A program made the position numbers and the translations under genes. A DNA stretch of 64,000 nucleotides from Candidatus Thiodiazotropha endoloripes (lineage in GTDB: Bacteria > Pseudomonadota > Gammaproteobacteria > Chromatiales > Chromatiaceae), in NCBI GenBank assembly GCA_001709035.1, contig LVKA01000016.1, positions 186,001 to 250,000 on the forward strand. The letters run 5' to 3'. Position 1 is the stretch's first letter, and the number at the start of each line of letters is the position of its first letter. Below, in pieces: positions 10,678 to 24,488 of the stretch. The notes beneath the pieces are model-generated. The model was not told the origin of the DNA, searched no databases, and saw nothing but the letters and a program-made list of their open reading frames with translations.

Positions 10678-13218
10678 TTAAAAATCCCATCGGTAGCCCG
10701 CATAGAAGAAGTAGTCGGTAAAATTGGTCACTTCCGTACCATCATCCTCTTCAAACCAGTTGAGTCCCCCCTCCAGTTCGAAGCTGAAGTCTTTCCGCAA
10801 ACGGTAGTCCATCCGCAGAAACGGACTGACCGTAAACCGGGTTCCTTCATTCTCTTTGTTTTCCCGATAGGAGACGTCCAGACGCGGATTGACCCGCCAG
10901 GCGTTGGTGATGGGATAACGGCTGCTGACCCCAACCCGATAGGTATCCGAGGTATCCGAATCGGAATATCGGAGGGTGAACACTCCGATATCCCCCTGTT
11001 TCAGCAGATCGTTCTTGATCACCTGAAAGGAGTAAAAGAACTCCGTATCGGTGGCCTCCGTGGCCAGTACGCCACCTGAAGCGGGGGTTTCACCGGTTTT
11101 ACTGGCCGTAAAGTCGCCACTCAATTGCAGGGTGTCCGAGAAAGGATGGGTGACACCAAAGGAGATACTCGAGGATTTGGCAGTACGATCCAGGGCCAGA
11201 TCATAGATCTCATCGTCGCTATAGAAATCCTGCATCTCCTCAACTGACTCGATCGGCAGAAAGGTGTCCGGGTCTGATTGTCCACTCAGGGCATTCGAGG
11301 TCATCAGAATTGGACTGCTGCGATAATCCAGATTGAGATAGAGGCTGGTTTTGTTCTCCAGGCGCCAGTTGGTCTGCAGCATAAAAATACCCAGCTCTTT
11401 GTGGAAGATATCGTAATCGACCAGACTGAACAGGGACTTTTGCGGATCGTAATAGCGGACCTCACCACCCAGTGCTCTTCGGTCAACCAGACCATCGACC
11501 CGCTGCTCGACTAAAAACAGGCTCGCATCCCAGTTTTCAAATATGCTGGAGAAATCACCACTGATCCCGGCAAACTGTTTGTGTTCATGCAGAAAGGTAT
11601 CCCGGGAGCGTTCGACCGGCAGACCCGCTGAGGCCCGGAGTTTGATATCCGGGGTGAGCTCGTAACCGAGTACCAATCCATCAAATCGGTTCAGGATACC
11701 GCTTGAACGGAGTCTCTGACGGCCAAACTTGGCGCTGGTCCGGGTGTCCAGGTGTTCAACATCGATATAGGCATCGCTGAGGGTGGTATCGTTTTCCCCA
11801 TCATCCAGCAGATCGTAGATATAACTGCCGGTGATTTTCATGCGCATGTCGTAATCTTCACTGCGGCGACGGGCATTGAAATCGACGAAACTCTCAATCT
11901 CCGAGCGGGAGATACTGTCTTCGTCCTCGACAAAGGGACTGTCGATCTTATCCCGGCGGTAGTTCTGGGAGAAACTGCCGTAGACATCCCAAATCGCCTT
12001 CTCCCCTTCCTCTTCGCTGCCTGGTTCCCCCGGCTTGGGCCTTTTGCGTAAGGTCTCTTTGGGCCGTTGAGGTGCGGTCTCAAGGCCCAGCAGACGCTGT
12101 GTCACCCGCTCCGCATCCTCACCTTCCGGGTACTTTTCCAGATAGAGTCTGTACTCCCCTTTCGCATGGGCAATCTGACCGTTACGTTCACGGGAGAGAC
12201 CCAGCAGCTCCAGGGCTTCCTGGGTGTAGATGTTGTCAGGCTCTTCCAGCAGGGCTTCCAACAAGCGTACCGCTTTGGCATAGTCACCCGCCGTGATGGT
12301 GCGCCGGATCATCTCCATCATCTTGGTGATACGGGGGTCCACATTGGCCAGTTCAGGCTCCTCCATGTATTGACCGTCCAATCCCGGCTCCAATCCCCTC
12401 TCAAAAAAGGCCTGTCGACGCTCAACAATATCCGCCGTGTCGATCCAGGCATTCGGATAGAAGCTCTTTACCGCCTCTAACTGCCGTTTGGCATCCTGCT
12501 TGGTGCGAAAAAATCCGAGCCGCAGACGGTAGATCGGATTACCTTCGATCTCCCCCTTGGTGCTGTAGAGCAGTTGATTTTCGCCGATTGGCACCGGTGG
12601 CATCTCCTCATAGTCGACCGGTTCGGATTGGACACCGAGATTGAGTACATAGATCACCAGGGGCAGTGACTTGACACTCAATGGCGCCTTCATTTCAGGC
12701 ATTTCGGTCTGCAGCGTCTTCAATCTGGCCTGGCCGAAACCAGAGCTGCGTTTGGCCTGTTCCGGGAGAACAAACTCCATCACATAGAAATCCCTGCCCT
12801 GGCGGATTTTCACATCCCTGACCGGCGTGGCGAATGAGACCAGCAGGGTGGAGGTGCCTAGACGGCTACCCTGAAAAACCACTTTATCAAGTGGTATCGC
12901 AGCAGATGGGCTCCAGGTTAGTTGATCCTCCTGATCGAGCTCGCCATCCTGGTCCTGCTCGGTTGTCGCACCCAGCTCTTCATCCGTGGTCTGTCCTACC
13001 CTGACCTGCACTCCCAGTTCACTGTTTGACTCATTGATCAGGTGAGACACATAACGGACCGGCACATTGAAGTGGACAGCGATGACATTTGCCCCCGCTT
13101 CAGAATCGATTTCAATACGATCGAGAATTCTGGATGCAGCCTGTGACTGTGTGGTCAATAGCAACAACACGATTGACAACAGCCAGAAATAGACCCTCGA
13201 TTGAACTTTGAGCTGCAC
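10678..13218 (-). CDS. Outer-membrane beta-barrel protein with SPOR-like and TPR regions, multiheme locus
   Basis: The 846-residue protein has a signal peptide (1-27), an AMIN-like beta domain (about 30-150), a SPOR-like segment (about 216-262: YRLRLGFFRTKQDAKRQLEAV), a tetratricopeptide pair (about 307-375) and, from about 405, alternating beta strands ending in the aromatic C-terminus YRWDF. That last feature is the usual outer-membrane assembly signal. No CxxCH motif is present. It follows the giant cytochrome in the same direction after 153 bp. It is not recognisably MtrB, yet position and architecture make it the candidate outer-membrane partner of the cytochromes. The SPOR-like segment could bind septal peptidoglycan. 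The start is GTG with an AGG about 9 nt upstream. The barrel call is strong; the function is inferred. Confidence 0.75.
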   Translation of the reverse strand: MQLKVQSRVYFWLLSIVLLLLTTQSQAASRILDRIEIDSEAGANVIAVHFNVPVRYVSHLINESNSELGVQVRVGQTTDEELGATTEQDQDGELDQEDQLTWSPSAAIPLDKVVFQGSRLGTSTLLVSFATPVRDVKIRQGRDFYVMEFVLPEQAKRSSGFGQARLKTLQTEMPEMKAPLSVKSLPLVIYVLNLGVQSEPVDYEEMPPVPIGENQLLYSTKGEIEGNPIYRLRLGFFRTKQDAKRQLEAVKSFYPNAWIDTADIVERRQAFFERGLEPGLDGQYMEEPELANVDPRITKMMEMIRRTITAGDYAKAVRLLEALLEEPDNIYTQEALELLGLSRERNGQIAHAKGEYRLYLEKYPEGEDAERVTQRLLGLETAPQRPKETLRKRPKPGEPGSEEEGEKAIWDVYGSFSQNYRRDKIDSPFVEDEDSISRSEIESFVDFNARRRSEDYDMRMKITGSYIYDLLDDGENDTTLSDAYIDVEHLDTRTSAKFGRQRLRSSGILNRFDGLVLGYELTPDIKLRASAGLPVERSRDTFLHEHKQFAGISGDFSSIFENWDASLFLVEQRVDGLVDRRALGGEVRYYDPQKSLFSLVDYDIFHKELGIFMLQTNWRLENKTSLYLNLDYRSSPILMTSNALSGQSDPDTFLPIESVEEMQDFYSDDEIYDLALDRTAKSSSISFGVTHPFSDTLQLSGDFTASKTGETPASGGVLATEATDTEFFYSFQVIKNDLLKQGDIGVFTLRYSDSDTSDTYRVGVSSRYPITNAWRVNPRLDVSYRENKENEGTRFTVSPFLRMDYRLRKDFSFELEGGLNWFEEDDGTEVTNFTDYFFYAGYRWDF

Positions 13219-13332
13219 GCTTGTTACCTGATTGAATTAAAAAATGTTATTAAATAAAGACTGCTGGTTGATGGGCTGCAAGGCCATCCTATCAGGTCAT
13301 GAGAATAATGAACAAAGTGCTTAAAATGACCC

Positions 13333-13362
13333 GAATAATCCCTAATCACTAAGGGATTATTC
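13333..13362 (-). terminator. Stem-loop immediately after the giant cytochrome gene
   Basis: GAATAATCCCT and AGGGATTATTC form a perfect 11-bp stem with an 8-nt loop, 9 nt past the stop codon. No T-tract follows, so it may protect the mRNA 3' end or attenuate transcription into the barrel-protein gene. Confidence 0.55.
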
Positions 13363-13371
13363 AGATATCAT

Positions 13372-16300
13372 TTACCACTCCCTGTCGCTCACTCTATGAC
13401 AGCCGCTGCTTCCGCAATTACGATCAGCACTGAGTCCGCTATGGTCATCTTCACCATTTTCGTAGTCGTTTGCATGACATCCCGCACAGGAGCGAGCATA
13501 GCTTGGAAACGGCCAAGGCACTGACTCACTGTTACTTGTGTGACAATCTTGGCATGACAGGTTAGCCCGGTGATCACCCGGATAGTTTCCGGATGTATGA
13601 CGATAGTTTATTACGGGCAACCAACCATTGGTGGTATGGCAGGCATCACACTGCTGGGTGGTAACGAAATGCCCTTGAGGCTTACCGGTGGCCGTCGTAC
13701 CGTTATGGCAGCTGTTACAGTTACCCGTTACACCACTGTGATCAAAAGTAACGCTGAGCCAGTTACTGGTTGAGGTATGGCAATTATCACACTGAGCCGT
13801 GGTGGGCAGATGGCTAGCCGACTTACCCGTGGCGAATGTGCCGTTGTGGCAGTTGGAGCAGGTACCCGCCACATTGGTGTGACTGAAGGTCACATTCAAC
13901 CAGTTGTCGGTTGAGTTATGACAGATATTACACTCTTGCGTAGTGGGTATATGGTTGCCGGGCTTGCCGGTCGCCAGGGAACCGTTGTGACAACTTGAAC
14001 AACCGGTAATGATGCTGCCGTGGTTGAAATCGACATTGGTCCAATCGGTTGTGGATATGTGGCAAGTATCGCACTGACCTGAAGTCTGGATATGGCCGGC
14101 ATGTTTGCCGGTTGCAGTCACACCGTTATGACAGGTTGAACAGGTACCCGCCACATTGCCATGGGTAAAGCGCACGTTCAGCCAGTTGGTTGTCGAGAGA
14201 TGGCAATCATCACACTGTGCGGTGGTCGGCACATGCCCCGGATCCTTACCGGTAGCGGTGATGCCATCATGGCAGTTGGAGCAGTTACCCGCCGCATTGG
14301 TGTGATCGAACCTGACCGCCAACCAGTTCGTTTGGGAGGTATGGCAGGCATCGCACTCGGATGTGGTCGGTACATGGCTAGCCGGTTTACCAGTAGCGGT
14401 AACCCCATTGTGACAGCTTGAACAGGTACCGGTAACCACAGAGTGATCGAAGTTGACGGCTGTCCAGGTAGTCTGGGAGGTATGACAGACATCACAGGCT
14501 GCATTGGTGGCCACATGGCTTGCCGATTTTCCGGTTGCAATGGTGCCGTTATGGCAGCTCTGACAGCTACCGGTCACTGTGCTGTGGTCGAAACGTACCG
14601 AGCGCCAGTTGGCGGTTGAGATATGACAACTGTCGCACTGGCCGCTGGTGGCGATATGGGCCGCATGTTTACCCGTGGCAATGCTGCCATTGTGGCAACT
14701 GGAACAGGTTCCAGCCACGCCGGCATGATCGAATGTGCCGGTTGCCCAGGTCACCGTGGTATGGCAGTTCTCGCACGGCTCATTGGTCGGTATGTGATTG
14801 GCCGGCTTACCCGTGGCATCCACATTGTTATGGCAGCTTGCACAGCCGGAGACGATACCGGTGTGATCAAAGCGAATGTTCAACCAGGTGGTATTGGAGA
14901 TGTGGCAGTTGTCACAGGCGGCATTGGTCTGGACATGATTGGCCGGCTTGCCGGTTGCTGTATTGCCATCGTGGCAGCTGGCACAGGCACCGGAGACCAC
15001 CGCATGATCGAAAGTGATCTGCAACCAGTTGTTGGTTGACGTATGACAAGCCTCACAGGAGGCTGTGGTCGCCACATGGGCGGCATGCTTGCCGGTTGCC
15101 CTGACCCCGTCATGACAGGATTGGCAGCTACCGGTAACCCCATCATGATTGAAATTGGAGATATTCCAATTGCTGGTGGTATGGCAGGTATCGCAGGTGG
15201 CGTTGGTCAACACATGGGATGGCGACTTGCCGATGGCGATATCTCCGTTATGGCAGAGGTGACAGGCTGTTGTGACACCACTGTGGGTGAAACCGTTGAG
15301 GTTCCAGTTAGTGGGGGTATGACAATCCTCACATAGTTGGCTGGTGGCAATATGTCCGGCATGTTTACCGGTGGCGGTGGTCCCGTCATGGCAGGATTCG
15401 CAATCCCCAGTAATCCCCGCATGGTCAAAATTGGAGATCAGCCATCCATCAACCGTATGACAGGTATCGCACTGGGCATTGGTCTGCAGATGACCGGCGT
15501 GCTTACCGGTTGCCCGCACCCCGTTGTGACAGCTCGAACAGATCCCTGAGGTCGGCACCGCATTGTGATCGAAACTGACCCTCAACCAGCTGGTGGTCGA
15601 GTTGTGGCAGACATCACACTGCTCAGTGGTGGCAATGTGGTTGCTATGCATACCGGTGGCGGTGGTGCCGTTGTGACAGCTTGAGCAGACACCGGTGGTG
15701 GTCACGCCACTATGATCGAAGCTTGTATCCTGCCAGTTGATGGTAGAGAGGTGGCAAATATCACACTGAGCGGTCGTTTCGATATGTTGTGCATGTTTAC
15801 CAGTTGCCTGCGTACCATCGTGGCAATTTGAGCAGTTACCGCTGGCAGCCACATTGTCATGATTGAAGGTGGTCAGCAGCCAGTCGATGGTTGACGTATG
15901 GCAGCTGTCACACTGGGCATCGGTGGGAATGTGTGAGGCGTGTTTGCCTGTTGCAACCACACCGTCATGACAACTTGAACAGGCCCCTGCCACACCGGCG
16001 TGATCAAAACGACCGGTACTCCAGGTAATGGTGTTGTGGCAGTTCTCACAGGGCTCTGTGGTGGGTATGTGGGTATCGGGTTTACCGGTGGCATCCACCC
16101 CGTTGTGGCAGGATTCACAACCACTGGTAATGCCGCTGTGATCGAAGCGCACCGCTGTCCAGGTCTCATTGGAGATATGGCAGTTGTCACAGGCCGCATC
16201 GGTCTCGATATGGTCGGCCGATTTACCAGTTGCAGTCACGCCATCATGACAGCTGGCGCAGCTACCGGTCACGATTGAATGGTCGAAAGTGACTTCCGCC

Positions 16301-18312
16301 CAACTGGTTGTCGAGGTATGACAACCTTCACAGACCGCCGTAGTGGCCACATGGGTATCGTGTTTGCCGGTGGCACGAACACCATCATGACAGGAGTGAC
16401 AGCTCTCGGTGACCCCTTCATGACTGAAGTTGCTGATCGTCCAGGCGTTGGTAGTGTGGCAGTTGTCGCATGATGCCGAAGTTGGAATGTGGTTATCGTG
16501 TTTACCGGTGGCCACACTGCCGTTATGGCAGGATTCACAGGTACCGGAGACACCTTCATGGGTAAACCCTGTCAGAGTCCAGTCATTGGTTGAGTGGCAG
16601 GCCTCACAGGGTGAGCTGGTCAGGATATGATCCGAATGCTTACCGGTGGCGGTCACCCCGTTGTGGCAGGACTCACAATCCGCGGTGATACCCTCATGGG
16701 AGAAGTTGTTGACGTTCCAGGCAGTGGTTGTGTGGCAGGTGTCGCACTCGCCGTTGGTCTGCAGGTGATTGGCGTGTTTACCGGTGGCGCGTACACCGTT
16801 GTGACAGGTGGAGCAGACGCCTGCGGTTTCAATCGAGCTGTGATCAAAGCTGACATCACTCCAGTTACTGGTTGAGTTATGACAGACATCGCACTGCTCG
16901 GCAGTCTCAATATGCGTCGCATGCATGCCGGTTGCCTGGCTGCCGTTATGGCAGGTGGAGCAGCGCCCGGCGGCATCCACGCCGCTATGATCAAAACTGG
17001 TATTCAGCCAGTTGTCGGTAGAGAGATGACAGACATCGCACTGTTCGCTGGTCTGAATGTGCAGTGCATGCTTACCGGTCGCCCGGGTACCGTCGTGACA
17101 GGTGGAACAGACGCCAGCACTCTGGAATCCGTCATGGCTGAAATTGATGACATGCCAGTTGGCGGTGGTCGCATGGCAGACGTCGCAGGATTCATTGGTG
17201 ACAATATGGGTATCGTGTTTGCCTGGCGCCTGTACTCCGTCGTGACAACTTGCACAGGTACCCGGTACAACCTCACTGTGATCAAATCCGACCACACTCC
17301 AGTCTTCTGTTGAGGTATGACAGGTATCGCACTCTGCCGTGGTCTGTACATGATCCGCATCCTTACCGGGCTGTGTAATACCGTCATGACAACTGGAGCA
17401 ACGGCCAAACACCTCCTCTCCATGGACAAAGTTAACCACCAACCAGGAATTGGTCGAGGTATGGCAGATCTCGCACGGCTCCCTGGTTGGCACATGACCG
17501 ACAGGCTTTCCGATTGCACTGACCCCGTTATGACAGCTCTCGCAATCTCCCCGGATCCCGGCGTGGGAGAAGTTATCCACTTGCCAGCTGTTGGTGGTGT
17601 GGCAGAGATCACAGGCCTCATTGGTCACAATATGATTGGCCGATTTACCTGTGGCGCTGGTGCCGTTATGACAGCTTTCACAGCTGCCGGCGGCGACGGT
17701 AGAGTGATCAAAAAAGACCAGTAACCAGCTGTTGGTGATATGGCAGGTATCGCAGGGCTCTTCAGTTGCGATGTGGGTATCGTGTTTGCCACGGGCGATG
17801 TTGCCGTTATGGCAACTCTCGCAGGTGCCTGTGACGACCGAGTGATCCACACGGCTGACCCGTCCCCAACTGAAAGTGGTGTGACAGAACTCGCAGGTAT
17901 TCCCGGTACTGATATGATCACTGTCCTTGCCCTGGGCAGCGGAGCCGTTGTGACAGGAGAAACAGCCACTGTCGATGGTACCGTGATCGAAGCGGGCCAC
18001 ATGCCAGCCGACAGTGGTATGGCAATCGTCACAACGGTCGTCACTTTGAATATGATCAATCGGCTTACCGGCTGCATCGGTATCGTTGTGGCAGCCGTCA
18101 CACATGACCGGGGTACCCTGGAACTGGCCCTTGTCATGACACTGATCGCATTCAACATTGCGATGCTCACCTGTGAGCGGAAAGCCTGTTTCAAAATGGT
18201 CGAATTCAGCACTCTCTGCCTGCACGAAATTCATCAATGACAGACTGACAACAAAGAGCAGTAGCCAACTGGCCTGTTGTAACAGTAATCTATATTTGGG
18301 CAGTCTCATCAT
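13372..18312 (-). CDS. Giant multiheme c-type cytochrome: 67 CxxCH plus one CX4CH
   Basis: About 1,646 residues: a signal peptide (MMRLPKYRLLLQQASWLLLF..., cleavage near VQAESA), then haem motifs to the end. I count 67 CxxCH and a terminal CGSSGCH (CX4CH). Motifs 2-65 form 32 tandem modules of 46-49 residues with the plan CxxCHxG-x2-ATGK-x3-H-x7-CxxCH-x4-W-x3-FxH. Each module thus has two haems and two spare histidines, the number needed for bis-His ligation. A Trp follows every second haem. The N-terminal segment (FPLTGEHRNVECDQCH) resembles modules of the upstream 21-heme protein. I start at the ATG with GGA 7 nt upstream; an in-frame ATG 12 nt earlier is possible. The gene begins 22 nt after the 21-heme gene, so co-transcription is likely. 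Expected location: periplasm or beyond, as a long-range electron carrier (inference). Confidence 0.93.
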   Translation of the reverse strand: MMRLPKYRLLLQQASWLLLFVVSLSLMNFVQAESAEFDHFETGFPLTGEHRNVECDQCHDKGQFQGTPVMCDGCHNDTDAAGKPIDHIQSDDRCDDCHTTVGWHVARFDHGTIDSGCFSCHNGSAAQGKDSDHISTGNTCEFCHTTFSWGRVSRVDHSVVTGTCESCHNGNIARGKHDTHIATEEPCDTCHITNSWLLVFFDHSTVAAGSCESCHNGTSATGKSANHIVTNEACDLCHTTNSWQVDNFSHAGIRGDCESCHNGVSAIGKPVGHVPTREPCEICHTSTNSWLVVNFVHGEEVFGRCSSCHDGITQPGKDADHVQTTAECDTCHTSTEDWSVVGFDHSEVVPGTCASCHDGVQAPGKHDTHIVTNESCDVCHATTANWHVINFSHDGFQSAGVCSTCHDGTRATGKHALHIQTSEQCDVCHLSTDNWLNTSFDHSGVDAAGRCSTCHNGSQATGMHATHIETAEQCDVCHNSTSNWSDVSFDHSSIETAGVCSTCHNGVRATGKHANHLQTNGECDTCHTTTAWNVNNFSHEGITADCESCHNGVTATGKHSDHILTSSPCEACHSTNDWTLTGFTHEGVSGTCESCHNGSVATGKHDNHIPTSASCDNCHTTNAWTISNFSHEGVTESCHSCHDGVRATGKHDTHVATTAVCEGCHTSTTSWAEVTFDHSIVTGSCASCHDGVTATGKSADHIETDAACDNCHISNETWTAVRFDHSGITSGCESCHNGVDATGKPDTHIPTTEPCENCHNTITWSTGRFDHAGVAGACSSCHDGVVATGKHASHIPTDAQCDSCHTSTIDWLLTTFNHDNVAASGNCSNCHDGTQATGKHAQHIETTAQCDICHLSTINWQDTSFDHSGVTTTGVCSSCHNGTTATGMHSNHIATTEQCDVCHNSTTSWLRVSFDHNAVPTSGICSSCHNGVRATGKHAGHLQTNAQCDTCHTVDGWLISNFDHAGITGDCESCHDGTTATGKHAGHIATSQLCEDCHTPTNWNLNGFTHSGVTTACHLCHNGDIAIGKSPSHVLTNATCDTCHTTSNWNISNFNHDGVTGSCQSCHDGVRATGKHAAHVATTASCEACHTSTNNWLQITFDHAVVSGACASCHDGNTATGKPANHVQTNAACDNCHISNTTWLNIRFDHTGIVSGCASCHNNVDATGKPANHIPTNEPCENCHTTVTWATGTFDHAGVAGTCSSCHNGSIATGKHAAHIATSGQCDSCHISTANWRSVRFDHSTVTGSCQSCHNGTIATGKSASHVATNAACDVCHTSQTTWTAVNFDHSVVTGTCSSCHNGVTATGKPASHVPTTSECDACHTSQTNWLAVRFDHTNAAGNCSNCHDGITATGKDPGHVPTTAQCDDCHLSTTNWLNVRFTHGNVAGTCSTCHNGVTATGKHAGHIQTSGQCDTCHISTTDWTNVDFNHGSIITGCSSCHNGSLATGKPGNHIPTTQECNICHNSTDNWLNVTFSHTNVAGTCSNCHNGTFATGKSASHLPTTAQCDNCHTSTSNWLSVTFDHSGVTGNCNSCHNGTTATGKPQGHFVTTQQCDACHTTNGWLPVINYRHTSGNYPGDHRANLSCQDCHTSNSESVPWPFPSYARSCAGCHANDYENGEDDHSGLSADRNCGSSGCHRVSDREW

Positions 18313-18334
18313 CCTATTTTCCATACCGAATCGA

Positions 18335-19909
18335 TCAACGAATTTCCGGGTTTTCGAACGTTTCTGTAGAGTGGCAACGATCGCAATGCCGGCCAAATCC
18401 ACCTCGATGTATGTCATCCCCCCGATGACAACCGTAACAATGGTTGGCTGACTGTTTATGTTCGGTCAGCTCAGCGCGGTGACAAGCGTGGCAGAAAACC
18501 TCGCCGTGCTTACCATCCAATGGAAATTCTGTCTGTTCATCGTGATTAAAAGTCCAGAGCATCCAGGCATTTGGGTTGTGGCAATCGCCACACAACTCAC
18601 CCATTTTTCCTTCATGGGTGTCATCTTTTTCATGACAGGACAAGCATTCAATCTCTGTCTGTGGGTAGACAGCATTGAGATGACAGGATTCACAGGCAGT
18701 AACACTATGGATACCGATCAGTGGAAAGCGTGTGATGTCATGCTCAAAAAAGAGCTTCTCAGTCCAGCCCTTTTCATTGTGGCAGTAGCCGCAATCCTCA
18801 CCCAAGTCACCTTTGTGCAAATCGATTGCCCTATGGCAGGTGATACACTCGGCCTCTTTCAAATCATCCATTGCGGCATTTCGATGACAGGCGTGACAAC
18901 TCAGCTTTTTATGCTTGCCTTTCAGTTCGAATTTAGCGTCTTTGCCGTGATCGAACTGTGTTTCTGTCCAACTTGATGGACGATGACAGTCCTGGCACTT
19001 CTCGCCATTACGTCCTTTATGATCGTCATCTTTCTCATGACAGGCGAAACACTTACTTGAGATTTTCTTTTCGAACGGGCCGCGGATATGGCAGGTATCA
19101 CAAGGCACATCCTTATGACGCCCTTCAAGCGGAAATTTGGTATCCGCACGGTGGTCGAATGAGAGCTCTTTCCAATCCTCGGTTGCGTGGCATTTCGCAC
19201 AGACTTTGCCATATCGGCCATTGTGCGCATCATTGATCAAATGGCAGCCAATACACTCTTTGGGTGTATTTTTGTAGTGTTCATCGGCGTGGCAGAGCTT
19301 GCAGTCGAGATCCCGGTGTTTACCGGTCAATGGATAGTCGGTATCCAGATCATGATCGAAATCCTGTTTACGCCAACCCTTTTCGTTATGACATTTATCG
19401 CACTCTTCACCCAACTCCCCCCGGTGGGCATCGTCCGACTCATGGCAATCGAAACAGAGTGAGGGGGCATGACTGTACTTTTTCAGATCTTGCTTATGAC
19501 AAAGCTGACAGGCCAGCTGCTCATGACGACCCCGTAACTGAAAATCGGTCTGTGAATGGTCGAAATCCTCAGTGTCCAGATTGACGATATCCCGATCTCT
19601 TCCTTTATGCTCGGTATGGCACTGCTTACAGTTGGCGGCGCGCTGTTTGTCCAGTCGTCCGTGAAAACCTGTGCCTTGCTCAATATCTTCGGCCACATCG
19701 CTGTGATCGTGACAGGCGAGACATCGCTCAACTTGATCCGCTTTTTTCAAGGTCTCATGACAGCTCTCACACTTCTCTTCGAACTCGGCATGGCCTTCGA
19801 TGACCGGTCCCGGCATCAACAGTAGATCCAGCTTCCCTGCGTGGCTTTGAGATAGGGTAAATATCATCAGCAATAGTACGCAAATGACATGACAGCCAAA
19901 TCGGTTCAT
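18335..19909 (-). CDS. 21-heme c-type cytochrome
   Basis: The 524-residue protein has a signal peptide (1-24, ending SQSHA) and 21 CxxCH motifs. After a three-haem N-terminal part, six modules of about 65-70 residues repeat, each with three haems and the pattern FPLxGxHxxxxCxxCH, CxxCHxxDDxHxGxxGxxCxxCHxxxxW, FDHD. Additional His residues (GxH, DxH, FDH) supply probable distal ligands. It is highly charged, unlike the Ser/Thr/Asn-rich giant cytochrome next to it. It starts 35 nt after the membrane cytochrome gene in the same direction. A periplasmic electron-transfer role between inner-membrane donor and giant cytochrome is inferred from order. Confidence 0.93.
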   Translation of the reverse strand: MNRFGCHVICVLLLMIFTLSQSHAGKLDLLLMPGPVIEGHAEFEEKCESCHETLKKADQVERCLACHDHSDVAEDIEQGTGFHGRLDKQRAANCKQCHTEHKGRDRDIVNLDTEDFDHSQTDFQLRGRHEQLACQLCHKQDLKKYSHAPSLCFDCHESDDAHRGELGEECDKCHNEKGWRKQDFDHDLDTDYPLTGKHRDLDCKLCHADEHYKNTPKECIGCHLINDAHNGRYGKVCAKCHATEDWKELSFDHRADTKFPLEGRHKDVPCDTCHIRGPFEKKISSKCFACHEKDDDHKGRNGEKCQDCHRPSSWTETQFDHGKDAKFELKGKHKKLSCHACHRNAAMDDLKEAECITCHRAIDLHKGDLGEDCGYCHNEKGWTEKLFFEHDITRFPLIGIHSVTACESCHLNAVYPQTEIECLSCHEKDDTHEGKMGELCGDCHNPNAWMLWTFNHDEQTEFPLDGKHGEVFCHACHRAELTEHKQSANHCYGCHRGDDIHRGGFGRHCDRCHSTETFENPEIR

Positions 19910-19944
19910 GACGAATGTAGGTAGAGTGTTGCTTGCTTAACGGT

Positions 19945-20856
19945 CTAGTAGGCATGCACAGCATAGACATGCACAAAACCGGTAATCACCATCATGATGA
20001 AGAGCGGCATATGCAGCAGATGCCAGATCGCAAAAAGTCTTTCATAGAAATGTAGCTCTAGAACCTGCCGAAGGATAGACCTGTGGGACAACAGCATTTT
20101 TCTGATGCGCAACTGATTGCGTCGAACTTTGGACTTGGACCAGCCTTTTTTGTAGCCCACGGCCAGCAGTTTCTTGTTCAGAGAACGCATCACCTTTGGG
20201 TAGAGTACCGCAGAAGTATAGCGCATTTTGACCCAGTGCTTGGCGCTGGAGATCGGGCCGGTAGGAGCATTCATGACATCCTTTTCATACTGCTTCATCA
20301 GCTCCTTGGCTTTCGGATTCAATTCGAACAGACGTCCCAGTTTTTTCTTCAGCACCAGAGAGTCAGCGTGCAAGGAGGCAAATGTCGCCTTTTTACCATA
20401 CAAACCGTAGTGGATTCGGGTATAGAAGTAACGGCCGAACAGACCGCTGATTGCTACAAACAGCATACTGTAGAGTGCAACCTGGCCATTCAGGGAGCCG
20501 ATATGGAAGCTGGAGTGCATCATGATCAGAACCGGACCCAGCACACCAAACACCATGTGCAGACGGAACCAGAACTTGACAGTCAGCCATTTGGACATAA
20601 AGTGTAAACGTTTGCGCATCGGATAGAGCAGCAACAGCAACATCATGCTGCCACCGACGATACCTAACCAGTAGCCCCAGCCGACCTCAGCTGTCCATAC
20701 TGCCTGGGAGTGGTTCAACCAGGCCATATAGAGGAGCAAGAGTGAAAACAGGGTAAATCCCAGGGTTGTTATAAACCCCGCTCTGCGTTGCCAGGCAGAG
20801 AGAATGCTCTCCAGTAGAGTCTCATTTACACTGGTTGATATGGCTGCTGTTTGCAT
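19945..20856 (-). CDS. Polytopic b-type-cytochrome-like membrane protein
   Basis: The 303-residue protein has about five membrane spans (28-47, 61-79, 98-116, 125-145, 277-300) and a basic cytoplasmic loop between the last two. Histidines lie in and near spans: His100 and His114/His118 (FRLHMVFGVLGPVLIMMHSSFH), and a cluster at the end (WHLLHMPLF, HVYAVHAY). The pattern resembles b561/ferric-reductase-like haem-b proteins, so it may accept electrons from quinol or from the divergent flavoprotein. I start at the third of three closely spaced candidate starts because AGGTGA lies about 7 nt upstream. It is first in the cytochrome operon. The haem-b assignment is moderate. Confidence 0.75.
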   Translation of the reverse strand: MQTAAISTSVNETLLESILSAWQRRAGFITTLGFTLFSLLLLYMAWLNHSQAVWTAEVGWGYWLGIVGGSMMLLLLLYPMRKRLHFMSKWLTVKFWFRLHMVFGVLGPVLIMMHSSFHIGSLNGQVALYSMLFVAISGLFGRYFYTRIHYGLYGKKATFASLHADSLVLKKKLGRLFELNPKAKELMKQYEKDVMNAPTGPISSAKHWVKMRYTSAVLYPKVMRSLNKKLLAVGYKKGWSKSKVRRNQLRIRKMLLSHRSILRQVLELHFYERLFAIWHLLHMPLFIMMVITGFVHVYAVHAY

Positions 20857-21047
20857 CGACATCACCTACATATTTAGTATTAATTTCAATCACTTACTTT
20901 TTTATTACTGCTTTTTATTTAGAATGAGAGCCGCGATCAGCATTTTCTCCACATTACGTCTCTATGTTATGTTGGGACAAATTTCCCATCCATGAAGGGC
21001 TTCACAAAAAATCACTCTAAATACATTTATGTTTTCGGCAGAAACCT

Positions 21048-21139: not shown

Positions 21140-22456
21140 ATGCAGTACACCATCGATTTCCTGCTGATCTACCTAATACCCATACTACTTGTATGGGCTA
21201 TTTACATATTGCATAGCCGCAGGAAAAGTAAAAAGAATCTTGCTCTTAAGACAGAAGAGTTCGAAGCAGGCCTGACCGAACCGGCCTCGCTCCACCCATT
21301 GATCGATCCTGCAAAATGCATGGGCTGTGGAACCTGCGTAAAAGCCTGCCCGGAGCAGGCCAACCATCCCGTACTGGGGCTGATCGACAATAAGGCTGAG
21401 CTGATCGCCCCAACCAACTGCATCGGCCACGGCGCTTGTAAAACCGCCTGCCCTTTCGATGCCATTACCCTGGTCTTCGGCACAGAACGACGCGGTGTCG
21501 ATATTCCCCTGCTGGATAATTTTCAAACCAGCATGCCGGGCATTTACATCGCCGGTGAACTGGGTGGCATGGGTCTGATCAGAAATGCCATCGTACAGGG
21601 AACCAAAGCCATGGATCAGATCCTGGAGGCACTCAAAAGTGAAGGCAGCGCACCCCTCGATCTACTGATCGTAGGAGCCGGACCTGCTGGATTCTGTGCC
21701 TCATTGAGGGCGATGGAGAAAAAGATCAAATACAAGACTGTGGAGCAGGAGTCTCTGGGTGGAACGGTTTTTCAATTTCCCAGAGGCAAACTTGTGATGA
21801 CCGCACCGGTAAAGCTGCCCTTGGTTGGTGAGGTCAAATTTACTGAAACCACCAAAGAGAAGCTGCTTGAGTTCTGGGAGGATGTAGAGCGCAAGACCGG
21901 CGTGCAGATCAGCTACCATGAGCGGGTGGAGAAGATTACAGCCAACCCTGCTGGTGGCTATGATGTCAAAACCAACAAAGACGCCTATCATACCCGCATG
22001 GTCCTGCTGGCCATCGGCCGACGGGGCACTCCCCGGAAACTCGGTGTACCTGGGGAGGATCTGAGTAAGATCACCTATCGTTTAATCGATCCGGAACAGT
22101 ATAAAAACCAGCATGTCCTGGTGGTTGGCGGCGGTGACAGTGCGCTTGAGGCTGCAACCAGTATCGCTGCGGAGCCAGGCACCACAGTCACCCTCTCCTA
22201 CCGCAGTGGAGCCTTTAGCCGGGCGAAGAAAAAAAATCGGGAAAAGGTGGATCAAGCTGCCGAATCAGGCCAGATCAACCTGTTACTCAGCACCAATGTC
22301 ACTGAGTTCACTGAAGAGACTGTCACCATCGACAAGGGTGGAGAGAAGATTGAAATTCCTAATGACGCTGCCATCATCTGCGCCGGCGGTATACTTCCAA
22401 CAGGATTTCTTAAAGAGACCGGCATCAATGTGGAAACCAAACATGGCACCGCCTAG
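21140..22456 (+). CDS. Membrane-anchored ferredoxin-domain NAD(P)/FAD oxidoreductase
   Basis: The 438-residue protein begins with one membrane span (5-27). A two-cluster ferredoxin region follows: CMGCGTCVKACP (60-71) and CIGHGACKTACP (94-105). In the second, a His replaces one Cys. From 172 comes a thioredoxin-reductase-like flavoprotein with FAD motif GAGPAG (179-184) and NAD(P) motif GGGDSA (330-335), but no redox CxxC. It therefore probably passes electrons between NAD(P)H, FAD and Fe-S centres rather than reducing disulfides. It is divergent from the cytochrome operon and overlaps the downstream Sel1/ankyrin gene, so it is likely part of the same system, feeding or draining the membrane cytochrome (inference). 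Confidence 0.85.
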   Translation: MQYTIDFLLIYLIPILLVWAIYILHSRRKSKKNLALKTEEFEAGLTEPASLHPLIDPAKCMGCGTCVKACPEQANHPVLGLIDNKAELIAPTNCIGHGACKTACPFDAITLVFGTERRGVDIPLLDNFQTSMPGIYIAGELGGMGLIRNAIVQGTKAMDQILEALKSEGSAPLDLLIVGAGPAGFCASLRAMEKKIKYKTVEQESLGGTVFQFPRGKLVMTAPVKLPLVGEVKFTETTKEKLLEFWEDVERKTGVQISYHERVEKITANPAGGYDVKTNKDAYHTRMVLLAIGRRGTPRKLGVPGEDLSKITYRLIDPEQYKNQHVLVVGGGDSALEAATSIAAEPGTTVTLSYRSGAFSRAKKKNREKVDQAAESGQINLLLSTNVTEFTEETVTIDKGGEKIEIPNDAAIICAGGILPTGFLKETGINVETKHGTA

Positions 22457-24488
22457 ATCCAACACAATAATCAGACAGACAGGGATGGTAATGTTACTGT
22501 GTCTCATGCTGGTAGTACCCTTTCCAATACTCTCAGCAGAACATGCCGAGGCCGAAGCGGCGATTCGTATCCGGGATTTCAATCGTGCCGTGGAGATCTA
22601 CACTCAACTAGCCGAACAGGGAGATGCCGAGGCGCAATTTGCATTGGGCGGTCTGTATCGTGCCGGCCGCGGTATTAAGAAGGATTATGCCAAGGCACTC
22701 CACTGGTACTTGAAAGCCGCCAACCAGGAGCATACCGAAGCCCAATACACCACCGGAACCATGTATGAGAACGGCTGGGGAATTGATGCGGATTCAGCGG
22801 TTGCCAGTGATTGGTATGACAAAGCCGCCATACAGGGTCATCGGTTGGCGAAAAAGCGGATGGAAAATCTCTCCACCACCTCCCCGGTGACAGGCTTGAG
22901 CGACCAGCAGGCGGCTGAGTTTCTCAATCGCGCGGCGGCAGCGGGCAAGAGTGAAACCCTGAAACGTATCCTGGCGTCAGGCCTCTCTCCCGACACCCGA
23001 GATGAATTCAGCCGTAGCGCCCTGCATGAGGCGGCCATCAATGGCCGTACAGATGCGGTTGAAATCCTGCTTGCGGCAGGTGCCAACCCGAATACCAGTG
23101 ACAGCCTTGGGGACACCCCACTCCACTCCGCTGCAGGATTGGGGTACACATCGATTGTGCGCAGCCTGATCAAGGCTGGCGCCAAGTCGGAAACCCTCGA
23201 CGCCAATGAAAACACAGCTTTGTTGGTTGCCACCGGCAGAAAGCACCTGGAGACCATCAAGGTACTGTTGGAAAACGGTGCCAGCGTAAATGCCAAAAAC
23301 CGTAAAAAACAGACTTCGCTGGATATGGCACTGCTGCGCAATGACAAAGCGATTGCCAAACAGCTCAAGGCAGCTGGTGGCATAGCAACCCAAACTCGAA
23401 ATAAAACCAAAGAGTTCCCGGATCTGGCGAAGATCAGCGCATCAATATCCCTGTCCAATGAAAACCCGGATAACAAGAGTAATCCCTTTGCAGGCTGGAG
23501 CACTTTGCATCTTGCTGCCTGGCGCGGCCAGAAGCCTTTGATCGAGGCTCTACTCAAGCAGGAGAATGAACTCGACACACTGGATCCGGAAGGCTTAACC
23601 CCGTTAAGCCGAAGCGTATGGCAAGGCCATGCTGAAGTGACCACATTACTGCTTGATCATGGAGCCGATCCCAATCTGGCAACCCCTGGCAGCCCCACCC
23701 CGCTTCTGCTGGCCTGCCGTGAGAATAATCTGAAACTGGTAAAGCTGTTGATAGCACGTGGCGCCAAAATCGATGTCTCAGGTAAAAATGATATAACGCC
23801 ACTGCATTTGGCGATCGAGCAGCAGAATCTGGAACTGGTAGAGCTGTTGATCAAAAACAATGCCCGATTGTCCAAGACCACCGACACCGGCATCACACCA
23901 CTGATTCTGGCTGTACTCAAATCCCAGCCTGAGATCGTTAAAATATTGCTTTCGCGCGGTGCCTCACCGGATCAGGCAGACAACAAGGGCCGAACCCCGC
24001 TCTACCATGCGATTGGTGTTGGTGATCCCGCGATTTTTCATCAACTCTTGAAGAGTGGTGCAAAAATCGAGTTGCAGGCTGATGATGGACTCACACCCAT
24101 GATGCGCGCCGCTGCAAACGGTCATGCCGACATGGTGAAAGAGTTGATTCCCCGTGAAGGTTATGTGGACCGGCTGAGTAACAATGGCAATACGGCATTG
24201 ATGCTGGCAGCCAGAAGCGGTTCACTAAACACTCTGAACATCCTGTTACGCTATTCTGAAAACCTGGAACATCGCAACAATGCGGGAAACAGTGCCCTGA
24301 TGCTTGCAGCAGAACAAGGACATCTCTCCGTTGTGAAACGCCTGTTGGAGATGAAAGCCAACGCCCACCATCTCAACCTCCGACGTGAGAGTGCCGAAGA
24401 CCTCGCCAGACAGGGTAATCATGATGAGGTGGCCGAGTATATCGAGGCCAATAAAGGCAGTGGCGGACTGCTCGACTTGATGCGTTAG
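22443..24488 (+). CDS. Sel1-repeat and ankyrin-repeat secreted protein
   Basis: The 681-residue protein has a signal-like hydrophobic segment (15-31), two to three Sel1-like repeats (about 40-140: DAEAQFALGGLYRAGRGIKKD, and HTEAQYTTGTMYENGWGI), then about a dozen ankyrin repeats in two blocks (155-320 and 355-675) of the form G-x-TPLHxA-x6-G-x3-I-V-x2-LL-x2-GA. Such solenoids bind proteins. The export signal suggests a periplasmic scaffold. The start overlaps the oxidoreductase gene by 14 nt, suggesting coupling; a later ATG near 22485-22491 would also keep the signal segment. It contains no haem motif. A role in assembling or docking the cytochromes is speculation from position. Confidence 0.85.
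   Translation: MAPPRSNTIIRQTGMVMLLCLMLVVPFPILSAEHAEAEAAIRIRDFNRAVEIYTQLAEQGDAEAQFALGGLYRAGRGIKKDYAKALHWYLKAANQEHTEAQYTTGTMYENGWGIDADSAVASDWYDKAAIQGHRLAKKRMENLSTTSPVTGLSDQQAAEFLNRAAAAGKSETLKRILASGLSPDTRDEFSRSALHEAAINGRTDAVEILLAAGANPNTSDSLGDTPLHSAAGLGYTSIVRSLIKAGAKSETLDANENTALLVATGRKHLETIKVLLENGASVNAKNRKKQTSLDMALLRNDKAIAKQLKAAGGIATQTRNKTKEFPDLAKISASISLSNENPDNKSNPFAGWSTLHLAAWRGQKPLIEALLKQENELDTLDPEGLTPLSRSVWQGHAEVTTLLLDHGADPNLATPGSPTPLLLACRENNLKLVKLLIARGAKIDVSGKNDITPLHLAIEQQNLELVELLIKNNARLSKTTDTGITPLILAVLKSQPEIVKILLSRGASPDQADNKGRTPLYHAIGVGDPAIFHQLLKSGAKIELQADDGLTPMMRAAANGHADMVKELIPREGYVDRLSNNGNTALMLAARSGSLNTLNILLRYSENLEHRNNAGNSALMLAAEQGHLSVVKRLLEMKANAHHLNLRRESAEDLARQGNHDEVAEYIEANKGSGGLLDLMR

Follow-up and report, generated by a model that had tools for sequence, protein, structure and literature searches.

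A 68-haem cytochrome in a Candidatus Thiodiazotropha-like clam symbiont, the predicted extracellular component of a proposed PCC3-type porin-cytochrome conduit

What might a single protein chain do with 68 haems, and on which side of the outer membrane would it do it? The question is raised by one gene in the window analysed here, a 64,000-nucleotide stretch of DNA from a Candidatus Thiodiazotropha-like clam symbiont. On the minus strand a frame is open from 18417 to a stop at 13372; its likely start is the ATG at 18324 (MENRMM), the alternative being 18312, which the first-pass annotation had chosen. That annotation had reported 67 CxxCH motifs and a terminal CGSSGCH, and a recount from the translation bears this out, giving 67 CxxCH, one CX4CH and no CX3CH. 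All 136 cysteines lie within haem motifs, 88 histidines lie outside them, and the density is 24.3 residues per haem. Shuffled copies of the protein (500 shuffles) contained a mean of 1.06 and a maximum of 5 CxxCH motifs, and a chance origin of the 67 was rejected on these grounds. The parts of the gene are as follows:

13372..18324, minus strand: long (extracellular-type) multihaem cytochrome of the PCC3 cluster, 1650 residues from the start at 18324
18217..18324, minus strand: N-terminal segment resembling a Sec signal peptide (by eye), ending VQA-ES, with no lipobox cysteine
18103..18216, minus strand: head with haem 1 (FDHxxTGFPLTGxHRNVxCxxCH...GTPV), resembling periplasmic cytochrome units
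13555..18102, minus strand: array of 32 two-haem modules (haems 2-65), from the sequence
15982..17109, minus strand: modules 8-15, one duplication copy (nine-module offset)
14707..15834, minus strand: modules 17-24, the other duplication copy (nine-module offset)
13375..13554, minus strand: C-terminal cap, haems 66-68 and the terminal Trp, from the sequence and relatives
13396..13416, minus strand: terminal CX4CH motif CGSSGCH (haem 68; residues 1637-1643)

The dN/dS ratios of the long cytochrome gene, 0.035 and 0.039 against two near relatives, L037 and L039, and 0.066-0.090 against four more distant species in which synonymous sites are near saturation, indicate that it is under purifying selection. 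Promoter and terminator scans returned matches no more frequent than in shuffled sequence.

The first-pass annotation had described the interior as 32 modules of 46-49 residues, a length that holds for 31 of them, the last having 55. Its two spare histidines, one at module position 17 and one after the tryptophan, are present in 32/32 modules, as is the tryptophan itself; the motifs around them are looser than described, with A.GK in 29/32 and exact ATGK and F[DS]H in 23/32 each. In 57 eight-module segments from 20 sources, chosen for their likeness to the window segment, overlapping and at most three per protein, 16/16 spare-histidine columns were invariant (65 segments were candidates; of the eight omitted, most were irregularly spaced segments from L071 and L092), and across 34 selected complete proteins there are 1.03-1.38 spare histidines per haem. 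The earlier proposal that all haems have bis-His ligation is thus well supported, albeit indirectly, by conservation rather than by structure. An AlphaFold prediction of modules 8-15 made with the 57 aligned segments gave a poor model (pLDDT 54.6, pTM 0.32), and the reach of about 50 nm once suggested for the chain is arithmetic on an assumed haem spacing.

Three neighbours on the same strand bear on the role of the protein:

10678..13218, minus strand: porin, 846 residues, with a SPOR match and a predicted barrel, downstream of the long cytochrome
18335..19909, minus strand: periplasmic-type multihaem cytochrome, 524 residues, 21 CxxCH, upstream of the long cytochrome
19945..20865, minus strand: inner-membrane protein (IMP), cytochrome-b-like by its motifs, 306 residues

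The gene order is porin, long cytochrome, 21-haem cytochrome, IMP. These are the four parts of PCC3, a proposed electron conduit between cell and surroundings that was described from genomes in 2017 and is composed of a porin, a long multihaem cytochrome, a periplasmic multihaem cytochrome and an IMP (He et al. 2017, PMC5566968); lying side by side as they do, they place the gene in a PCC3-type cluster. This setting accounts for the protein, and the first-pass annotation had not drawn on it. The published IMPs have about 300 residues, two WX3HX13H motifs, one SGXXG and five transmembrane helices, and the published haem medians are 34 for the long and 21 for the periplasmic cytochrome, with 22-39 residues per haem in the former (PMC5566968). 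The IMP of the window has WX3HX13H at 99 and 281 and SGXXG at 140, and a PDB search with its alignment returned no match at E 0.1; the 21-haem cytochrome is built mostly of three-haem units. The cluster has a predicted barrel porin, a long repetitive multihaem cytochrome, a 21-haem partner and an IMP of the expected size and motifs. A chain of 68 haems is large but within the known range, since PCC3 long cytochromes include those of Amphritea atlantica, with 63 haems, and Agromonas oligotrophica, with 85 (PMC5566968). The likeness to the PCC3 cytochromes of that paper extends to gene set and order, haem range, low number of residues per haem, internal repeats, IMP motifs, porin and periplasmic partner; the present case comes from a Candidatus Thiodiazotropha-like genome and appears to add the head, the cap and two further neighbours. 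The long cytochrome is a strong new example of the PCC3 kind and no new kind. MtrCAB, MtoAB and PioAB resemble the cluster in combining a porin with multihaem cytochromes, but the cytochromes here carry 68 and 21 haems rather than about ten, and the porin had no match to the NCBIfam MtrB/PioB families at E 0.001. A search of the symbiont's own genome for the same families was uninformative, as the control matched in 0/14 genomes.

The porin comprises an N-terminal part with the SPOR match and helices, and a barrel part that ends in Phe. The AlphaFold model, which begins at residue 24 of the protein, has 22 strands in model residues 387-822 (pLDDT 81.9, pTM 0.52). The 50 Foldseek matches listed, which include MOMP, FimD, AlgE and OprD-type porins, are without exception outer-membrane proteins, but their TM-scores are low (0.14-0.31 by query length). 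The modelling supports an outer-membrane barrel and does not indicate a particular family.

We consider it likely that in the clam symbiont the long cytochrome belongs to a PCC3-type porin-cytochrome conduit, as the member predicted to lie outside the cell; electron conduction itself we infer from haem density, ligands and neighbours. In such a conduit two b haems of the IMP would pass electrons to or from the quinone pool, the 21-haem protein would ferry them across the periplasm, and the porin would let that protein contact the head of the long cytochrome. Beyond the outer membrane, the stack of bis-His haems would carry the electrons on towards a donor or acceptor, with the C-terminal cap as its far end; the number of modules would set the length of the wire, with head and cap as its docking ends. 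The first-pass annotation had the chain itself crossing the periplasm, which is probably misplaced, as in the PCC3 model a separate periplasmic cytochrome does so while the long one lies outside (PMC5566968), and here that task would fall to the 21-haem protein at 18335-19909. By analogy, the long cytochrome is more likely to lie outside the cell, the periplasm being served by a partner of its own; it should be emphasized that the published locations were themselves predicted, with CELLO and PSORTb (PMC5566968). Two features of the cluster sit awkwardly with the conduit, as does the poor AlphaFold model of the array. The long cytochrome has no lipobox, which leaves its anchoring at the surface unexplained, and the 22 predicted porin strands contrast with the up to 42 obtained by another method for PCC3 porins (PMC5566968), a difference that counts against the proposal.

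As to the direction of electron flow, we lean modestly towards uptake from reduced external compounds. Lucinid symbionts are reported to carry Cyc2 orthologs, iron oxidation being unproven in them as of 2025 (PMC12442345), and these orthologs would make electron uptake more plausible. The published record of PCC3 expression is mixed, and part of it counts against the conduit: in Sideroxydans ES-1 both PCC3 clusters are down on Fe(II) (PMC8788666), and in ES-1 proteomes the sole extracellular PCC3 cytochrome listed stands at 0 in all eight columns (PMC12016527); in CL21, PCC3 is expressed above the mean, in a 2025 paper that calls PCC3 functionally unverified (PMC12442390). Within the literature covered, a search found no paper joining ‘Thiodiazotropha' and ‘multiheme'.

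A scan with the IMP alignment found 169 relatives, of which the best 80 were kept as loci. The closest are from Candidatus Thiodiazotropha and lucinid-clam symbionts, the first four being 95-98% identical. A strong match, defined as E 1.1e-48 or lower (the next match being 1.7e-10), was found in 29/210 genomes of the order and in 20/22 of the genus, the window's own included; of the two remaining genus genomes one had no match (G138) and one a weak match (G139), and in another (G133) the match lies in two pieces. At E 0.001 the tally rises to 66/210 genomes, the weak matches being taken as putative other b-type cytochromes. The periplasmic cytochrome accompanies the IMP in 77 of the best 80 loci. 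With a PCC3 neighbourhood and the IMP of the cluster in 20/22 genus genomes, the possibility that the gene is an isolated oddity was set aside. A search of plasmids returned one record, in Emticicia, at 25.5% identity. The cluster can also lack the long cytochrome, which speaks against generality, as two loci (L073 and L074) have the porin after the periplasmic cytochrome with no frame of at least six CxxCH between them.

The number of haems varies among the relatives. Fifteen complete long cytochromes are available from the genus, the window included, of which 12 have 67 CxxCH plus one atypical motif (67+1), two have 61+1 (L048 and L050) and one has 49+1 (L047); tubeworm symbionts (L053, L054 and L056) have 47+1 and Sedimenticola 62+1. 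Five of the 67+1 relatives (L037, L039, L041, L046 and L049) were aligned module by module, and each of their 32 modules pairs with its counterpart in the window. In the three shorter genus proteins the last module is clearly conserved (76-83% against the window) and the first two modules match in order at 58-65%, little above the best interior modules (up to 63%); in the interior no in-order match to the window modules was seen. Thus, the interior has turned over and the end has stayed. In one tubeworm symbiont (L053), 9/22 modules have window module 26 as their best match, as if recently homogenized. The periplasmic partner has 21 haems in 16/16 genus loci; outside the genus it usually has 18, 21, 24, 27 or 33, and also 22 or 23, fragments aside.

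Conservation of the ends extends well beyond the genus. Among the best 80 of the 169 loci there are 44 complete long cytochromes; the other 36 comprise 24 truncated at contig ends and 12 that either lacked another multihaem frame or, as with L101, were excluded. A single atypical motif, CX3CH or CX4CH, occurs in 37/44 (including L052, whose frame contains N); these 37 also terminate in Trp or Phe, with or without one further residue, while 7/44 have neither (L063, L087 (runs of N), L088, L090, L095, L107 and L115). The atypical motif is the last haem in 34/34 position-checked proteins, the window included, a set picked by hand from which complete-looking proteins lacking the motif were left out. 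A terminal Trp or Phe resembles the C-terminal signal of barrel proteins. At the other end, a strict expression for the head matched 50/67 proteins, with L052 excluded. The 17 misses comprise eight genus proteins with YDH for FDH, three near variants by eye (L063, L082 and L105), two proteins with a long extension at the start (L065 and L079), one unrelated frame (L083) and three frames that open inside the upstream gene (L093, L107 and L112). Judged from these sequences, head and C-terminal cap are widely conserved and the interior is variable. Three betaproteobacterial proteins (L107, L115 and L117) have an alternative ending, RQxRGxxRxKPxPV, in place of the atypical haem and Trp/Phe.

It could be argued that, instead of forming a wire that covers distance, the haems serve mainly as a capacitor that buffers electrons at times of oxygen or nitrate shortage. 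Indeed their number is far beyond the need for crossing a membrane, and the capacitor idea has been raised for PCC3 in a study that modelled other PCC3 cytochromes as long and mostly linear, a shape that favours the conduit, and suggested capacitor or long-range roles (PMC10734462). The combination of a variable interior with a conserved head and a conserved cap, however, suits a wire with two docking ends, whereas a store would not call for special ends. The argument is indecisive, as the two roles can coexist, and we regard storage as the main function as unlikely though worth keeping in view.

Less probable still is a position within the periplasm or the porin, from which the long cytochrome would itself bridge both membranes. 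Its N-terminus is signal-peptide-like and without a lipobox, and its head is 32-42% identical to units of the 21-haem periplasmic partner, both of which are compatible with such a position. The separate partner, with its constant 21 haems within the genus, already suits that task, and a range of 50 to 68 haems among close relatives would be odd for a protein spanning a fixed gap.

Polymerization into a filament, as in the OmcS, OmcE or OmcZ nanowires, is a poorer explanation again. High haem density and a predicted location outside the cell speak for it, and are shared with the dense haem chains of the OmcS and OmcZ filaments. A PDB search at E 0.001, however, matched 6f0k_A (a cytochrome c family protein, which we take to be part of alternative complex III) and NrfH (2j7a_C) and no filament cytochrome, and one chain already holds 68 haems, so that the stack would be a single chain rather than, as in OmcS and OmcZ, a polymer of small subunits. 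Comparable by description is the 113-haem cytochrome of Methanoperedenaceae, which is archaeal and likewise has many haems per chain and a proposed role in extracellular electron transfer (PMC7082337).

The structure of the array at the DNA level bears on how it arose. Protein identity between modules averages 51%, and their DNA identity does not exceed 73%. Five of modules 8-15 and seven of modules 17-24 have their best partner nine modules away, and at that offset the DNA matches itself at 71% over 1143 columns; together these point to one old duplication. The longest exact DNA repeat within the gene is 19 nt, and Tandem Repeats Finder reported no array in 12000-20000. That the array was mis-assembled, a concern for any protein so repetitive, can be dismissed with near certainty, since exact repeats are so short, no tandem array was reported and 67+1 is also the count in 11 further complete proteins of the genus.

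The upper end of the haem series lies in groundwater. One locus (L071) runs off its end at 89 CxxCH, and the longer stretch of its contig (L116:77-12337; JACQWY010000013.1, a groundwater Gammaproteobacteria MAG) holds an open frame of 4086 codons for a PCC3 long cytochrome with 133 CxxCH and 11 atypical motifs (10 CX4CH and one CX3CH), a terminal Phe and no N. Its repeats have diverged, the 15 longest self-matches being 72-81% identical, but one exact repeat of 74 nt leaves the count provisional. A paper of 2020 gives 113 haems as the highest number on record (PMC7082337), and a literature search for ‘133 heme' returned none among the matches listed.

Beyond the IMP lie two genes on the opposite strand:

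21140..22456, plus strand: Fe-S flavoprotein, divergent neighbour, with two [4Fe-4S]-type motifs and an FAD/NAD(P) oxidoreductase domain
22374..24488, plus strand: protein with Sel1 and ankyrin repeats, after the flavoprotein (22374 is the start of the query)

The flavoprotein has a hydrophobic segment at its N-terminus (by eye), and in its second cluster motif, CxxHxxCxxxC (CIGHGACKTAC), His replaces a Cys. Its N-terminal part matches [4Fe-4S] proteins and its C-terminal part matches structures of the thioredoxin-reductase and ferredoxin-NADP-reductase type, the best being 7a76_A and Bdr (7a7b_A). Counting the best blastp match that covered half the query or more, wherever in the locus it lay, a flavoprotein-like protein is found in 60 and an ankyrin protein in 46 of the best 80 IMP loci, figures in which ankyrin repeats may inflate the latter and loci cut by contig ends may deflate both. 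Across the 210 genomes of the order the flavoprotein (E 1e-60) occurs in 29, the strong IMP in 29 and both in 28 (Fisher p 1.6e-32, uncorrected for kinship, the genomes belonging to about six genera). In each of the two genomes with one alone the contig breaks off close to the expected start of the partner, 99 nt beyond the IMP (G137) and 319 nt beyond the flavoprotein (G044). The ankyrin protein (E 1e-60) occurs in 28/210 genomes and accompanies the IMP in 27 of the 29 IMP genomes. The word ‘ankyrin' is absent from the main texts of PMC5566968 and PMC10734462 and from the other PCC3 electron-transfer papers among the matches listed in a literature search; the single listed paper containing it is unrelated.

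Through the neighbouring flavoprotein the conduit may be connected to NAD(P)H, and this protein and the ankyrin protein are specific candidates for a role at the inner end of the pathway. Taken together, the observations allow a tentative proposal, to which we give somewhat less than even credence. In many lineages PCC3 would be a six-gene conduit: the 2x[4Fe-4S] flavoprotein, tethered to the membrane, and the Sel1/ankyrin protein would belong to it and connect its inner end to NAD(P)H. The outer cytochrome would be a wire of head, stack and cap. In evolution it would gain and lose two-haem modules, so that its length ranges from about 14 to about 144 haem sites with both ends unchanged; lucinid and tubeworm symbionts would have in it an extracellular electron route beside sulfur oxidation.

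This study extends the description of PCC3 with the IMP of the cluster in nearly all genomes of one genus, a series of haem numbers, conserved ends, two frequent neighbours and a relative with 133 CxxCH. That a strongly selected 68-haem member belongs to a cluster carried by 20/22 genomes of a genus of animal symbionts suggests electron exchange between these bacteria and their surroundings. The related proteins with 50, 62 and 68 haems form a natural length series with which to ask whether haem number sets the distance of conduction. A practical consequence concerns gene naming: through its many repeats the long cytochrome scores 218 bits against TIGR03508 (DmsE decahaem), in 11 stretches and above the cut-off of 192.2, and automated annotation may therefore misname it a decahaem cytochrome.
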